Shown in pieces: positions 3,374 to 19,053 of a stretch of DNA of 29,348 nucleotides. This DNA comes from a virus. The stretch spans positions 1-29,348 of IMG/VR virus record IMGVR_UViG_3300024344_000092; one strand, written 5' to 3'. Made by a program: the position numbers and the translations under genes. How positions within the stretch are numbered: position 1 is the stretch's first letter; every line of letters starts with the position of its first letter. The notes under the pieces were generated by a model. It ran no database searches. It was given only the letters and a program-made list of their open reading frames with translations, and had not been told where the DNA came from.

Positions 3374-3876
3374 TGAAATTCTGGGAATACATTTTGTACA
3401 CCCATGAGCATAAAGAAAGTAGGAAGGGGAATATGATGGCAGCGATAAGTTTTTTTAGCTTGAAGCTCAAGCGACCTATCATGGTGAACACCCAAGATAT
3501 TACCCTAGTTCACCTTCCAAATGGTAGACCTGCTGCTAGGGCTACTGCTGAGTATGAAGGCAAGACATATAGATTGTATAAGTTATTAAAGGATTCGGAA
3601 GCTAAGGTATTAACACAGGAGGTTAAGATGTCAGCTATAGGAACGATAATGGCGTTATGGAATTTGAATCGTGGTTTGCCAGCCACAGGTAAAGTGGTTA
3701 TCAAAGAGGGAGTTGATGTTATAACTACTCTTGGTAAATCGCTAAAGGATAACAAGATTACTGCTAAAGAAAAGGCTGTCATAGTAAATGAGATACGACA
3801 GTTCTCTAATGCAGCGGTTAAATTACTGGAATCAATAACGATTCCTGAAGAAGCACCTAAAGGTAAGAAGAAGTAA
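3373..3876 (+). CDS. conserved-looking phage protein of unknown function, with strong internal start
   Basis: A 167-aa basic protein starting MKFWEYILYTHEH, coupled to the upstream peptide by a TAATG overlap. An alternative start at 3433-3438 (two adjacent ATGs) follows a GGAAGGGG sequence. The C-terminal half (MSAIGTIMALWNLN, from 3628) could be separate, because a perfect AGGAGG sits 5 bases before that in-frame ATG. The N-terminal part carries a TYRLYKLLKDSEAKVL segment. The C-terminal part is helical with a Lys-rich tail. No domain recognised. The gene lies between two membrane proteins in the late operon. Confidence 0.72.
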   Translation: MKFWEYILYTHEHKESRKGNMMAAISFFSLKLKRPIMVNTQDITLVHLPNGRPAARATAEYEGKTYRLYKLLKDSEAKVLTQEVKMSAIGTIMALWNLNRGLPATGKVVIKEGVDVITTLGKSLKDNKITAKEKAVIVNEIRQFSNAAVKLLESITIPEEAPKGKKK

Positions 3877-3924
3877 GAAGAAGGAAATTGAAAATACAGG
3901 TACTTCTTTTAACGAGGAGGTATT

Positions 3925-5301
3925 ATGAAAAACATTTTCGATATATTTAAAAAAGCTATTGTTAAAAAAAGGACAATCAAGCTCCCTGCTATAACAATGC
4001 CTAAGTTCAGGCTACCAAAGATAAAGGTTCCCAGGTTAAGAATACCTGTACCTCAAATATATATTCCTTTTAAAAAGATAGCTGTGATAGCAAGAAATAT
4101 AATTTCAACATTAGTAATAGTAACAGGTTCTGTAGGGCTACTAGTATCCTATATCAACCCTCTCCCATTTATTAACCAATACTATATAACAACACCACTT
4201 GTGAATGATAACGTAGCTTTGCTGTATGCAAACATTGAAATAGCACTTGGTGTTTCATCAGGATTAATATTGTTTGGCTTATTACTTCACGTTAATAACT
4301 TCAAGCAATGGTGGAGAAATATAAAAGCTACTCCAAGAGCAATACTAAATGCACCTATGGCTTTCTATAACAAGCTAAAGAAGTTTAGAGACTGGTTACT
4401 AGCTAAAATTGAATACCTAAATGCTGAGTCAGCTAAATGGCATAAAGCATTTACTGTACTGAGAAGTCCATACTCTTTGATGCGTAGCCTGGGGTTCAGC
4501 CCACAAATGGCAATCGCATTATTAACAGTAGGATCCACTGCAACCACTGGTGTAATCGTTAACGAGACTATCTTGGCTGAACGTAGCTTCAGTCGAGGAG
4601 ACAGTGGTGTGTATGCTGCTAGTGTTATCGGCAACGAGACACCACTTGATATACCAACCTCGTACTCCGAGAAGGAGAACACGCTTAGAATTGATTTAGG
4701 GACTACTCCTGTGCGTGAAATCACTATAGAGAATGTTACAGTGGGTACTGCCTACACAAACTCAACACTTCCACAAGGTGAAGCTAATGTTGTTCAGATA
4801 TCAGGGAATCCTAATGCAGAAAACTTTACTCCAACAAGATTAGAGATTGGTGAATTAATCTTTGAAAAGAATCGGTGTAAGAAATTAACCTTATCTGAGA
4901 TTAATGCACATACGATTATCGTTGAAGGCAATGCTTCAGACGGACAATCCATAGCACCGTCTCCTGGTACAGCCAGAATGAGAGCTATAGGTGGTGGTCA
5001 TCATCAGGCAGAAGCTATGATAACATCTGGCGGGACCTATGACCGTATATGGGTTCAGGCTCCTTCATCAGGCGTTAACGGAAAAATCGGAACTTTGAAA
5101 TTATCTAATCTTTATACTAAAGGTGGCGACTGTGTATTATCCAAGATGGATATTGGTACGTTAACTGTTAGATTAAATGAGATTGGTAATGGTGATGGAT
5201 TTGCCACTAAAGATTTCACGATAGCGACAACTGTGACTGGTGCTAATCTTTCCATTACTGATAACGTAGAAGTTTCAATATCAGAACCAGCAACTCAATA
5301 G
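3925..5301 (+). CDS. membrane-anchored beta-rich protein of unknown function
   Basis: A 458-aa protein with a GAGGAGG ribosome site. Residues ~17-50 form an unusual cationic proline ladder: basic-hydrophobic-basic-hydrophobic-Pro units such as KFRLP, KIKVP, RLRIP. Three hydrophobic segments follow, at ~54-76, ~103-122 and a weaker one at ~194-212, with a Lys/Trp-rich amphipathic stretch between the last two. The C-terminal ~220 residues are strand- and turn-rich with GGDC, IGNGDGF and repeated IGTL motifs, suggesting a parallel beta-helix or fibre-like domain. It is the last gene of the rightward block. It could be an outer-surface or superinfection factor made in the cell, or a virion protein. 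Not recognised. Confidence 0.75.
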   Translation: MKNIFDIFKKAIVKKRTIKLPAITMPKFRLPKIKVPRLRIPVPQIYIPFKKIAVIARNIISTLVIVTGSVGLLVSYINPLPFINQYYITTPLVNDNVALLYANIEIALGVSSGLILFGLLLHVNNFKQWWRNIKATPRAILNAPMAFYNKLKKFRDWLLAKIEYLNAESAKWHKAFTVLRSPYSLMRSLGFSPQMAIALLTVGSTATTGVIVNETILAERSFSRGDSGVYAASVIGNETPLDIPTSYSEKENTLRIDLGTTPVREITIENVTVGTAYTNSTLPQGEANVVQISGNPNAENFTPTRLEIGELIFEKNRCKKLTLSEINAHTIIVEGNASDGQSIAPSPGTARMRAIGGGHHQAEAMITSGGTYDRIWVQAPSSGVNGKIGTLKLSNLYTKGGDCVLSKMDIGTLTVRLNEIGNGDGFATKDFTIATTVTGANLSITDNVEVSISEPATQ

Positions 5302-6389: not shown

Positions 6390-6712
6390 TATTCTGTCTC
6401 CTTTATATTAATTTCCTTTATTAAAAATGCACGAGCTGTGCCACGAGTCCAGACCTTAATGATTCCGCCTTGCTCGTAGCCAGACTCCTTGCTAGCTAGT
6501 TCATTCTGCTTTGTGGCTGATAGTATCCATTGTGGTACTGAGGATTGAGAACTCTTAACCTCATAGCAGGTAGTATCGTTATAGATATCTAAATGTTGGT
6601 ATCTTTTATCTAGGTTCCTGACACCACCTATAGCTTCTGCTATCCTACGTTCGTAGTGCTTACCACGTTGCCTGTTATTCCTGTTCTGTTTGTGTATTGC
6701 TGATTCCTTCAT
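6389..6712 (-). CDS. Holliday-junction-resolvase-like PD-(D/E)XK nuclease
   Basis: A 107-aa protein with the RGKHYERRIAEAIG helix (Arg-Gly plus catalytic-type Glu), then HLDIYND, then CYEVKSSQ, which together make the E...D...ExK active site of archaeal-Hjc-like and VRR-NUC-like small nucleases. A QNELA segment follows at the expected distance. Such enzymes cut branched DNA, so the likely role is resolving recombination or replication intermediates before packaging. Its start overlaps the end of the sigma-4-like gene by 38 bases. The exact subfamily (Hjc-like or another small PD-(D/E)XK nuclease) is not settled. Confidence 0.7.
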   Translation of the reverse strand: MKESAIHKQNRNNRQRGKHYERRIAEAIGGVRNLDKRYQHLDIYNDTTCYEVKSSQSSVPQWILSATKQNELASKESGYEQGGIIKVWTRGTARAFLIKEINIKETE

Positions 6713-7202
6713 CCTGGTATCCTTTTGTTATGTTTGATTCTTTTAATTTTTTCATAGATAACTTTTCAATTTGTTGGGATCTTTGCCTGGTAACACCAAG
6801 TTTATCTCCAATAAATTTCTGTGTTTTACATACTGGGCTGTCAGGATTTAATCCATACCTATCAATTATAAATGACTTATAGTGTTTTGGGAGAACACTA
6901 AGCACTTTAGAAATTGTTTTCTCTGTATCGTTGTAAGTGTTGATGCTTAGTGCAGAAAGAAAACGAATCCTGTTGCGATCTATACTGGTTTCTTCTGAAG
7001 ATATATATCTTTCTTTTACTATTTTTAAATCCCAAGACTTAGGATGCAATATGTCCCCACACTCGCACTCAAATTCATAGCTTGTAGTGTTGTCTTTAGT
7101 GTGGATAAGTGTGCCTATTATAATTCCACGATGCCCAAAATGATTTTCATAAGGCTCTCTTTTTTTAAATGTTGCCATGTCCCCATAATAAAGTTTACTC
7201 AT
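6675..7202 (-). CDS. sigma-70 region 4-like DNA-binding protein
   Basis: 175 aa. Residues ~96-155 follow sigma region 4: VLSVLPKHYKSFIIDRYGL, then a KTQKFIGDKLGVTRQR helix-turn-helix (VTRQR at 137-141, where sigma70 has VTRER), then QQIEKLSMKKLKE. Regions 2 and 3 are absent, so it is not a complete sigma factor. Residues ~5-60 form a compact beta-rich domain resembling SH3/KOW folds, with a CECG pair at 46-49. It overlaps the neighbouring genes on both sides. It could bind -35-like DNA, compete for the RNA polymerase beta flap, or act as an activator. See the alpha-CTD-like gene 2.7 kb upstream in the same operon. Confidence 0.78.
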   Translation of the reverse strand: MSKLYYGDMATFKKREPYENHFGHRGIIIGTLIHTKDNTTSYEFECECGDILHPKSWDLKIVKERYISSEETSIDRNRIRFLSALSINTYNDTEKTISKVLSVLPKHYKSFIIDRYGLNPDSPVCKTQKFIGDKLGVTRQRSQQIEKLSMKKLKESNITKGYQDEGISNTQTEQE

Positions 7203-11494: not shown

Positions 11495-11756
11495 ATACCA
11501 ATTCCCATTCTTGATTCATTTCTCTATGTATTCCACACCCTTTACAAAACTCAGTCTGTCTTTTGAAATGGAACACTACCTGTTCATTGCCACAGGCTTT
11601 GCATTTAATTAACGTACCCATTGGGTCTACTTCAGTTCTTGGGTCTATCTTATACTTGCTCTTGTCCACCAGGTATTGCATCATAGTATGCAATACTGCT
11701 ATGTGCGTTTCTAAAACCTTAACTCTTTCCACTAAAAAATCTAATTTATCTTCCAT
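11493..11756 (-). CDS. coiled-coil plus zinc-ribbon protein (87 aa)
   Basis: Residues 1-40 form a coiled coil (LDFLVERVKVLETHIAVLH). Residues ~52-75 have two CxxC knuckles (CKAC and CKGC, 18 residues between) typical of a zinc ribbon. It overlaps the methyltransferase stop by 16 bases. The combination suggests a small dimeric nucleic-acid-binding or transcription factor. Not assignable to a named family. Confidence 0.65.
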   Translation of the reverse strand: MEDKLDFLVERVKVLETHIAVLHTMMQYLVDKSKYKIDPRTEVDPMGTLIKCKACGNEQVVFHFKRQTEFCKGCGIHREMNQEWELV

Positions 11757-13177
11757 AATAATCTCTCCATTATTGCTTTAACTACTGTAGTCGTTACAGC
11801 GTTTCCTAAAGTTTTATATCGTTGAGTGTCTGATAACCCTTCAGTCCAACCATCAGGGAATCCTTGCAATCTCTCGCATTCAGTAGGTGTGAGTCTTCTG
11901 ATTCTTAAACCATTACCTTCATCTACATATCTTGGCTCTTTGTAATCACGACTGTTAAGAGTAGGGCTATAGTCTTTATACTCTCGTATGCCTTCATTCC
12001 TATGTGAAGCATCCAGGATTCTGGGCTTATCCACAATTGTGTATTGCTCCATACTAGTTTCTAAAGTTTGGGCAATCTTTTTACCTACTCTCCCTCTTCT
12101 AGTCTTTGAATTGGGATAACTTAGGTTAACAGTATCACCAGTTTCAACAGTAGCTTCACCTTTTTTAGTGCCATCTTTAACTATTATCTTTGGCTTGTTC
12201 CCACTACCTTCAGTAGATTTTAATGACCTTGATATACCATCTGTTTCATACACATTTTGTTCAAAATGCCAACCATGTTCTGTTTTACCTTTAAGTGGGT
12301 TTTTTACTTTATACAACCCAGTCTTAGCACCGAGTCCACCACCTTCAGATCTTAATGTGGTAGCCAAGCCATCGCTATCATATATTCTGTTAGCTTGTGA
12401 TTTAGCTTTGGTAATTTCATTCAACATAACACCATGAATATCTTGCCCAGTTAAGGTAAAGCTAGGGTCATCAGGTTCTTTAAACCTTCTACCATTTTGA
12501 CGTTTCTTTTCTCTCTCTGGAGTAAGCACAGGTGTTGCGACTAATTGCCTTCTAGCTTTATGTAATGGCACAGCACCTTTATAATAACTAGAATCTAATG
12601 CGTACGAGATATCTTCCCCTGTGATGACAGAAGCTTCTCTGCCATTTCCTGTGATAGGAAATACTTTTCTGGGACTTCTGTTTCCAAGATATCCGATAAT
12701 AAAGATCCTCTCTCTGTTTTGTGGGACTGAGTAATCTTTGCTGTTAAGTATCTGCCATTCAACTCCATACCCCAAATCGGAGAGAACCCTAAGAATTGTC
12801 TGGAAAGTTTCTCCCTTGTCGTGAGATAGTAAACCTTTAACGTTTTCAAGTACCAGATATCTGGGTCGTTTGACTGAGAGAATCCTTGCGATATCAAAAA
12901 AGAGTGTTCCTCTTGTTTCGTTGAATCCTTTCTGCTTCCCTGCCACGCTGAATGCTTGGCAAGGAAATCCTCCAACCAAGAGGTCAAAGTCTGGGAGTTG
13001 TTCTCCATCAATTGTAGTTGCGTTTCCATAATTTGTTGCTCCTGGAAAATGTTTTTCGTATACCTGTATGGCATACTTATCTATTTCACTATAACCTATA
13101 AACTCTATATCTTCAGATGCCATTTTTGCACCTAATTCAAAACCACCTATACCACTAAACATACTAAATGCTTTCAT
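11741..13177 (-). CDS. C5 cytosine-specific DNA methyltransferase
   Basis: 478 aa with the ordered motifs: I (MFSGIGGFELG, 6-16, SAM binding), IV (GGFPCQAFS, nucleophile Cys73), VI (LENVKG, ~110), VIII (QNRERIFIIG, ~153), IX (RRLTPTECERLQGFP, ~427) and X (GNAVTTTV, ~458). It methylates C5 of cytosine in a specific target. The target-recognition region (~185-420) is unusually long and holds five or six related GxxxTL-type modules, which suggests multiple specificities. No cognate restriction enzyme is near, so the role is probably protection from host restriction or DNA marking. The GAAGGA ribosome site lies inside the end of the preceding small gene. Confidence 0.95.
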   Translation of the reverse strand: MKAFSMFSGIGGFELGAKMASEDIEFIGYSEIDKYAIQVYEKHFPGATNYGNATTIDGEQLPDFDLLVGGFPCQAFSVAGKQKGFNETRGTLFFDIARILSVKRPRYLVLENVKGLLSHDKGETFQTILRVLSDLGYGVEWQILNSKDYSVPQNRERIFIIGYLGNRSPRKVFPITGNGREASVITGEDISYALDSSYYKGAVPLHKARRQLVATPVLTPEREKKRQNGRRFKEPDDPSFTLTGQDIHGVMLNEITKAKSQANRIYDSDGLATTLRSEGGGLGAKTGLYKVKNPLKGKTEHGWHFEQNVYETDGISRSLKSTEGSGNKPKIIVKDGTKKGEATVETGDTVNLSYPNSKTRRGRVGKKIAQTLETSMEQYTIVDKPRILDASHRNEGIREYKDYSPTLNSRDYKEPRYVDEGNGLRIRRLTPTECERLQGFPDGWTEGLSDTQRYKTLGNAVTTTVVKAIMERLLWKIN

Positions 13178-15781: not shown

Positions 15782-16513
15782 TTATACCCCTATTTTTTCT
15801 TTTTTGAATTGTCTACCATGTACTATTAATCCAAATTCTTTTACCCCATTTATTGGGTTAGTTTCGGTATAATCTATTGGTAAATATTCGTTGTCAATGT
15901 CTTGAATAGTTTTGTAAACTGTAACGTTATTTAAATCATATTGCTTGATCAATTTGTCCATAGTGCCACCATAACTAGCCGTCAATCGCATATTATCAGG
16001 AACCTTATCAATATTATTAACCCAATAAGGAATTGATTTTGTATAAGCATAAAAGAAAACATCAGAATATTTTTTTGCCATTTCAACCCATGCTAAAAAA
16101 TAACGCTCGTTGAAAAAATCGCCTCCGGTATGAATTCTGACACAATCAACATTTATAGATACCGAATTTCTAAAGCCTTTATCCAATTCTAAAAACATTG
16201 CTTCAGTAGTTTTTAGATACATTAACTTGTCATAATTACGCCATAACTTATCCCTTAAAGCTTTTTTGTATGACTCGCCTGAACTTGCATAACATATAAT
16301 TGTAGCATTCTTTCCATAGGTCATTTTGCCCGTATATCTATCGGCTTTAGCTTTGCAAGTGTTAGCGAATGGACAGGAATGCCCTGACGGCAAATCAAAA
16401 TAATAAACGTTGTCATATTCTACTATTTTGGATAGCTTTGCGTTGTTGGTTCCCTTGCTAAATTCTACAGCATTGTGAGAATCGCATTTTGCATACTCTG
16501 CACTATTTTTCAT
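15782..16513 (-). CDS. GP88-family phage protein
   Basis: 243 aa. Residues ~42-60 (LPSGHSCPFANTCKAKADRY), a conserved central RIHTGGDFFNERYFLAW, and FYAYTKSIPYWV match the GP88 family known from mycobacteriophage gene 88 and many other phages, whose biochemical role I do not know to be established. Conserved Cys, His and Asp residues (SGHSCP, HTGGDFF) suggest a metal or catalytic site. A structured leader with a potential pseudoknot lies immediately upstream, and GAGGGG sits 6 bases before the ATG. Confidence 0.78.
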   Translation of the reverse strand: MKNSAEYAKCDSHNAVEFSKGTNNAKLSKIVEYDNVYYFDLPSGHSCPFANTCKAKADRYTGKMTYGKNATIICYASSGESYKKALRDKLWRNYDKLMYLKTTEAMFLELDKGFRNSVSINVDCVRIHTGGDFFNERYFLAWVEMAKKYSDVFFYAYTKSIPYWVNNIDKVPDNMRLTASYGGTMDKLIKQYDLNNVTVYKTIQDIDNEYLPIDYTETNPINGVKEFGLIVHGRQFKKEKIGV

Positions 16514-16516
16514 ACT

Positions 16517-16581
16517 GTACCCCTCTTTTTGTTTGTACTCCGAAAGTTTTTATTAATAGGGGGGTGGAGTACCCCCCCTAT
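16517..16581 (-). promoter_or_regulatory. potential RNA pseudoknot switch in the GP88 leader
   Basis: Read leftward, ATAGGGGGG (16564-16556 paired with 16581-16573) closes a very GC-rich 9-bp stem in an AT-rich spacer. Its loop contains GTACTCC (16572-16566), which is complementary to GGAGTAC (16541-16535), making an H-type pseudoknot with a ~14-base A/T loop. The same loop can pair, with one G-U, to GGGGTAC (16523-16517), which covers the Shine-Dalgarno GGGG and the spacer before the ATG. Two exclusive partners, one hiding the ribosome site, is a riboswitch-like layout. Confidence 0.5.
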
Positions 16582-16604
16582 CAATTGCATCAATGACAAT
16601 AGGG

Positions 16605-16991
16605 TTATACCCTACTATCACTAGTGATAAAAAATCTATCGTTTCTTTCCTTTATGAACTCCACCATGCCATGAAAATCATGTTCGTTTTGTTCTGGATA
16701 TCTTGTAAATTTTCTACCAACTATGTTTAATCTAGAATCAATAACATAAACCCCATTATCAAAGTTATCACAATCTAGGTTATCTAAGGTATCAATACCA
16801 ACGCCTAGTTTGCCGTCAAAAGTATTGCAAATTATTTGTGTTAACCTTGCTTGAGAATAATCGCCATTGCCTACAATGCCATATTCCTTAGCAACGTGTA
16901 ATAATGGCTCGATGCTATCCCTACCACCATTCCAATGTAAATAAATACCCATGTTAGTATTTTCAAATTCTATAACGGCTCTGTTACCCAT
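16605..16991 (-). CDS. conserved phage/bacterial hypothetical protein (MGNRAVI family)
   Basis: 128 aa. The pattern MGNRAVIEFEN, then IYLHWNGGRDSIEPLL, then YSQARLTQIICNTF, then VGIDTLDNLDCDNFDNGVYV and IVGRKF is shared with widespread phage hypothetical proteins. The HWNGG and DTLDNLDCDNxDNGVY motifs are highly characteristic, but the function is not known to me. It is coupled to the 29-aa frame by TAAAAATG. Its final codons hold the palindrome TATCACTAGTGATA. Confidence 0.75.
   Translation of the reverse strand: MGNRAVIEFENTNMGIYLHWNGGRDSIEPLLHVAKEYGIVGNGDYSQARLTQIICNTFDGKLGVGIDTLDNLDCDNFDNGVYVIDSRLNIVGRKFTRYPEQNEHDFHGMVEFIKERNDRFFITSDSRV
16616..16629. promoter_or_regulatory. perfect 14-bp palindrome, operator-like
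   Basis: TATCACTAGTGATA is a perfect dyad with half-sites TATCAC/GTGATA, similar to lambdoid operator half-sites. It overlaps the last codons of the 128-aa gene, upstream of the GP88 leader. It may be a repressor site or a coding coincidence. Confidence 0.35.
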
Positions 16992-17083: not shown

Positions 17084-17119
17084 ATGAACCCCTTCCCTTT
17101 ATATATTTAACCCTAATTC

Positions 17120-17170
17120 CTAAGACTGATAATTACTATCAACCTTAGAAGCAAGGGTTAAACCTTGCTT
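17120..17170 (-). terminator. tandem hairpins after the 91-aa gene, possible attenuator
   Basis: Directly after the stop at 17177 come AAGCAAGG/CCTTGCTT (17149-17156 with 17163-17170, 6-base loop), then CTAAG-AC-TGATA/TATCA-AC-CTTAG (17120-17148, symmetric 2x2 internal loop). No U-run follows, so partial termination, RNase processing or mRNA protection are all possible. Confidence 0.45.
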
Positions 17171-18761: not shown

Positions 18762-19053
18762 GTTACATTAGGGGTTACAATGTAAGTTACGTGTAACTTT
18801 TATGTAACTTTGGGTATAAGTTACAATGTAACCTAGTGTAACTTACGTGTAATTTGAACAATACGTATGTAATTAACACGTACGTAGTTTTAATTAATAT
18901 ATATTAACTTACAATTACATTTCTTTTAGAGAAATAAGTAATTGTAAGTTATATTAATATATATAATTATAATATATATATAATTAAAAGAAAGAAAATA
19001 TATAAAAGAAAGAAAAGTTTTTTGGTTATAGGTATGTAACTGATGTAAGTTAC
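18762..19053. repeat. iteron-like GTAAC/GTTAC cluster, candidate replication origin
   Basis: Eight GTTAC/GTAAC pentamers start at 18762, 18774, 18786, 18793, 18804, 18820, 18828 and 18838, mostly 7-12 bases apart, and two more at 19036 and 19049. Longer repeats include GTTACAATGTAA (18774 and 18820), TTACGTGTAA (twice) and ATGTAAGTTACGT (twice). AAGTTAC-GT-GTAACTT and TAACTTACAATTAC/GTAATTGTAAGTTA (18905-18918, 18938-18951) are dyads. A ~100-base A/T stretch lies alongside as a possible unwinding element. The layout is typical of iteron origins; the binding protein is unknown. Confidence 0.62.

Follow-up and report, generated by a model that had tools for sequence, protein, structure and literature searches.

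The Shine-Dalgarno (SD) region lies within the pseudoknot itself in the preQ1 and SAM-II translational riboswitches, with the ligand as the deciding factor (PMC9410914 for preQ1). In phage T4, the mRNA of gene 32 carries a pseudoknot, some 67 nt ahead of the AUG, which binds gp32 and constitutes the nucleation site of this repressor (PMC535899, PMC3014915), and GGAG sites of RegB are found in early leaders, some of them protected by RNA structure (PMC3014915). The leader pseudoknots of tisB (PMC7708055) and timP (PMC11228461) promote initiation, the pseudoknot form being the one that is translated, and timP switches between mutually exclusive folds (PMC11228461).

The locus analyzed here belongs to IMG/VR virus record IMGVR_UViG_3300024344_000092, the whole of which (29,348 bases, hereafter the window) was considered. 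Judged from its sequence, it would resemble the gene 32 operators of phages T4, T2 and RB69 in combining, on a phage mRNA, an H-type pseudoknot upstream of that mRNA's own ribosome site with an A/U-rich leader that contains the SD. It differs from these operators in that the pseudoknot ends 15-21 nt before the AUG and recurs before unrelated genes, as well as in its long stem, its SD-complementary loop and its lack of a known protein partner; the gene downstream, moreover, is not that of a single-strand-binding protein but a GP88-family gene here and other genes in relatives. By analogy, the type I toxin leaders of tisB and timP may also be considered similar in having a leader pseudoknot, although in those cases the mRNA encodes a bacterial toxin, its SD is sequestered and an antitoxin sRNA takes part, whereas the leaders considered here precede phage genes of unknown function and keep the SD outside the pseudoknot. 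As in the preQ1 and SAM-II riboswitches, a hairpin loop would pair downstream near the SD, but its partner is a separate sequence, hereafter called the decoy, and no Rfam riboswitch or leader family matched at its gathering score (the best weak match was RAGATH-23, with 21.3 of 92.6 bits). The GGAG motifs in these early phage leaders might likewise be compared with the sites of T4 RegB.

Genomic Context

The early operon of the window runs leftward on the minus strand between approximately 5.3 and 18 kb, and the rightward block of terminase and structural genes starts at 19.1 kb. The element sits in a spacer of 91 nt. Upstream of this spacer is a 128-aa gene that belongs to no known family (16605-16991, minus strand), and downstream is the GP88-family gene (15782-16513, minus strand; Pfam PF17338, E 2e-34). 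A continuation of translation from the first gene into GP88 was ruled out from the sequence, since the frame differs and a stop is met early.

Other features of the window were recorded alongside. An early protein encoded at 6675-7202 (minus strand) is similar (E 7e-9) to a PHROG made up of RNA polymerase sigma factors and is a possible phage sigma factor, whereas a 159-codon open frame at 12595-13074 (minus strand), lying in another frame but on the same strand inside the DNA methylase gene (11741-13177), could be either an overlapping gene or a product of composition. At 17106-17162 (minus strand), before a 29-aa ORF with the SD GGAAGGGG, two hairpins compete, AAGCAAGG-TTTAAC-CCTTGCTT and a long alternative that has 26-nt arms and the base TTTAACCC/GGGTTAAA, the two folds being possibly mutually exclusive. 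A cluster of GTTACA/TGTAACTTAC repeats occupies the divergent region between the early and late blocks (18797-19040), where it possibly provides promoter or operator sites.

A Hairpin Loop with Two Possible Partners

The hairpin spans positions 16552-16585 of the minus strand, from which all the parts described below are read, and is apparent in the sequence as well as in an inverted-repeat search. Its stem (S1) is formed by a 5' arm at 16573-16585 (RNA AUUGAUAGGGGGG, DNA ATTGATAGGGGGG), which was identified in the predicted fold too, and a 3' arm at 16552-16564 (RNA CCCCCCUAUUAAU, DNA CCCCCCTATTAAT). The original prediction had a stem of 9 bp, and these inner pairs are present, but the full stem has 13 bp including one G-U. 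The 8-nt loop (RNA GUACUCCA, DNA GTACTCCA; 16565-16572) is complementary to the SD and contributes GUACUCC, the 5' strand of the candidate second helix (S2). The hairpin is the minimum-energy fold, with z scores of -2.2 for 111 nt and -3.0 for 76 nt.

Beyond a 10-nt connector (L3; AAAAACUUUC, 16542-16551) that lies between the stem and its S2 partner comes the decoy, GGAGUAC (DNA GGAGTAC; 16535-16541), which by sequence and duplex energy is a perfect 7-bp partner of the loop and would form the 3' strand of S2; its start is 14 nt past the 9-bp stem and 10 nt past the full stem. The stretch AAACAAAAA separates the decoy from the GP88 SD, GAGGGG (16520-16525), and TACAGT (minus strand) separates the latter from the GP88 ATG (16511-16513). 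The alternative partner, GGGGUAC (DNA GGGGTAC; 16517-16523), shares bases with the SD, and its pairing with the loop includes one G-U. The presence on the minus strand of a hairpin with an SD-complementary loop upstream of the GP88 ribosome site, and both of its pairings, are therefore as had been predicted from the sequence. No start codon occurs between the decoy and the GP88 ATG, nor, in particular, between the decoy and the SD, which means that the decoy does not serve a small ORF as its ribosome site.

To evaluate chance, elements with a stem of at least 9 bp and a 7-nt complement of the loop within the next 45 nt were counted on the minus strand and in 150 dinucleotide shuffles of it. 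The real strand has two such elements, the second being located near 18.8 kb, where GTTACA is repeated, and the shuffled strands have 0.1 per window on average, with at least one in 14 of the 150. Shuffling only the 38-nt tail gave P = 0.0055 by match length and P = 0.002 by duplex energy. The loop/decoy match of the window, which was chosen by eye from a long window, is unlikely, though possible, as a product of chance.

Relatives and the Link to GP88

The sole close relative of the window, contig 3300011013_001882, has 99.9% identity with it and no change in the spacer, and is therefore uninformative on covariation of the element. Inspection of 80 loci upstream of GP88 homologues found the element only in this near-identical copy and in none of the other 79. 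Terminase, upstream-gene and PDDEXK searches gathered further members of the clade (G001, 3300030107_002961; G004, 3300017757_000238; G005, 3300030419_002143; G006, 3300030098_002757; L037 and L038). In those that have the pseudoknot design it precedes other, unrelated genes, and the GP88 gene of G005 itself is preceded by a plain hairpin with a 3-nt loop. The proposal of a switch specific to GP88 is thus rejected: the element belongs to the leader and not to the gene. A search for prophage relatives by terminase returned none.

The hairpin of the window is one of a set: the early operons of this uncultured phage clade have long hairpins in many intergenic gaps, typically 10-30 nt past a stop and approximately 20-40 nt ahead of the next start. 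In one set of five distinct leaders carrying hairpins of the same class, a 12-bp hairpin is kept throughout with 100% of its 12 pairs formed. Four of these 12 pairs have changed on both sides (A-U/G-C, G-C/C-G, U-A/A-U and U-A/C-G) and none is broken, compared with 0 double-sided changes in slid controls, which indicates that the hairpins of the clade, as judged by their sequences, are under a pairing constraint.

Many intergenic sites of the clade relatives L135, L136, L129 and L037 also carry the palindrome GTTTAAAC, present in 10-20 copies within 5.6-17 kb. It is approximately 38-fold over expectation in G006 (several hundred-fold for extended 10-mers), is absent from the window and from L137 (G005), and resembles a subgroup-specific operator or stoperator site.

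Recurrence of the Design in Other Leader Families

Two further leader families present the same succession of parts. The second is represented by G001, G006 and G004. Its stem has 15 bp and carries the loop UUUGCUCC; the decoy GGAGCAA (GGAGCA in G004) begins after a gap of 7 nt (6 nt in G004) and precedes an SD, the pairing being UUGCUCC/GGAGCAA. The leader of approximately 110 nt is near-identical across these three contigs and the following gene is different in all of them, which suggests a movable leader unit. Near-identical leaders of approximately 110 nt, each with a different gene after it, are recorded at L036 3430-3565, L129 1190-1320 and L133 ~1440 (minus strand), which suggests exchange of leaders as units. 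In the third family, G005, a 10-bp stem with 8 further pairs across a 4-nt bulge displays the loop UUUUUCGCUCCU, followed by GGAGCGA and then AAGGAG, and the pairing is UCGCUCC/GGAGCGA.

The distance from the 3' end of S2 to the AUG is 21 nt in the window, 17 nt in G001 and 15 nt in G005. The CUCC/GGAG core is constant in the three families, and the three outer pairs vary between families with complementarity retained. Homology of the elements, which would make these differences covariation, is not established by their sequences. The predicted hairpin with a pseudoknot-type pairing beside a ribosome site is nonetheless supported, in that the design recurs in relatives with changed letters.

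The strength of this recurrence was evaluated by swapping the tails among 45 leader hairpins, with the window and the loci fetched by DNA pattern excluded. Two leaders had matches of at least 7 nt versus 0.15 expected (P = 0.013), which is moderate evidence given the small number of families. An earlier version that included the window and the pattern-fetched loci (9 vs 1.25) was discarded as biased. Taken singly, the other two families gave weak results upon dinucleotide shuffling of the tail (P = 0.05 and 0.12 by length).

The exact hairpin core, GGGGTACTCCACCCC, was found in 32 stretches of IMG/VR, with the downstream partner only in the window's near-copy. A broader pattern of CTCC-loop hairpins retrieved 59 stretches, mostly unrelated hairpins, and outside the clade the full design was present only in L260 (contig 2571042457_000004, approximately 3850-3930, minus strand), an unrelated leader with the loop TTCCCTCCACT, the decoy AGTGGAG and the SD TGGAGGG, which does not count as independent evidence because the search was biased. 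Searches of the phage collection with the leaders of L260 and G005, and of genome contigs with the L260 hairpin, gave no match.

Alternative Explanations

The element might be an ordinary intergenic hairpin that serves mRNA stability, processing or cistron insulation, its loop complementarity being a coincidence favoured by GGAG-rich leaders. Indeed, the loops of most members of the class pair with nothing downstream. L036-L038 keep a hairpin in the same position after the stop of the upstream gene, but its sequence is unrelated, the loop has wholly changed (to UUAA) and the next gene is different. Moreover, among all the hairpins of the collected loci, loop matches of at least 6 nt are as common downstream (135 of 2288) as upstream (126 of 2288), indicating that loop pairing is no general property of hairpins; this lack of excess also weighs against the pseudoknot. 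Against it, two more 7-nt matches between a loop and the sequence preceding the SD occur in the clade with similar placement (P about 0.01), and we regard this explanation as possible but unlikely.

It had also been proposed that the loop pairs exclusively with either the decoy, leaving the SD open, or the SD, closing it, with folding order, ribosome load or a ligand setting the output of GP88. The two pairings are indeed possible in the window, where the energies of the loop:decoy and loop:SD duplexes are similar (-12.3 and -11.4 kcal/mol), and in G005 (-14.0 and -10.5 kcal/mol). Both occur as well in the unrelated contig L260 (-11.4 and -13.3), though this came from the biased CTCC-loop pattern. 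In the G001/G004/G006 family, however, decoy pairing is retained as in the other two families and SD pairing is essentially absent (-10.6 and -4.0 kcal/mol in G001), so that exclusive pairing with the SD is not general. The SD alternative is, furthermore, partly automatic, because any CUCC loop partly pairs with any GGAG-type SD, and in the window the nearer, perfect decoy should win. There is no conserved ligand site either. Altogether, we consider such alternation improbable. An extension to the whole clade, by which movable leader units would hold an SD-complementary loop with a tandem decoy SD as a protein-free translation switch, loop and decoy co-evolving in each phage, appears about as improbable.

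An operator in the style of T4 gene 32, in which an RNA-binding repressor of the phage would recognise the pseudoknot and then extend along the A-rich leader, would account for the order seen here, a pseudoknot and after it an A-rich leader with the ribosome site, which is also that of gene 32 in T4 and RB69 (PMC535899, PMC3014915). It is very unlikely, since the element precedes several unrelated genes, none of which is shown to be its own regulator, and no candidate RNA-binding repressor was identified. An intrinsic transcription terminator or attenuator, to which the GC-rich stem in an AT-rich spacer would point, can practically be dismissed, for the stem is not followed by a T run (CCCCCCTATTAATAAAAACTTTC) and is absent among the terminator-like sites of the scan.

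Proposed Role of the Leader Pseudoknot

Since its design recurs with different letters before unrelated genes, the leader element is probably a real control element, and the pseudoknot is fairly likely to be real. The fuller reading that we favour, a ribosome-site-adjacent H-type pseudoknot in an early-operon leader that leaves the SD outside, has about an even chance of being correct. According to this reading, the long, stable intergenic hairpin would display a loop with the SD-complementary core CUCC, which would form the pseudoknot by pairing with the decoy, a sequence that contains GGAG and lies a short way ahead of the true SD. Its 3' edge would lie 21 nt before the AUG, or 15-17 nt in the other two families, with the SD outside, so that the structure would most likely border the initiating 30S on its upstream side. 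We infer that the pseudoknot forms in vivo and acts on translation, and also the direction of this effect: it would help initiation, either by offering S1/30S a platform or by holding the loop off the SD, or else it would mark the 5' side of each cistron. Against this reading stand the number of independent families, which are three only and the first of which was picked by eye, the loops of only 3-4 nt in other hairpins of these operons, which are unable to form the pseudoknot, and the 7-nt connector of G001, which is sterically tight across a 15-bp stem. Moreover, folding with loop and decoy masked still places most of the SD of the window in pairs with neighbouring sequence, and an open SD is therefore not assured.

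If this reading is true, the clade has several early genes preceded by pseudoknots that adjoin the ribosome site and are held by a decoy SD. These would be compact natural parts with which to test how initiation is tuned by structure immediately ahead of the 30S footprint. They would likewise serve to test how the output of individual genes is set within the mosaic operons of phages.
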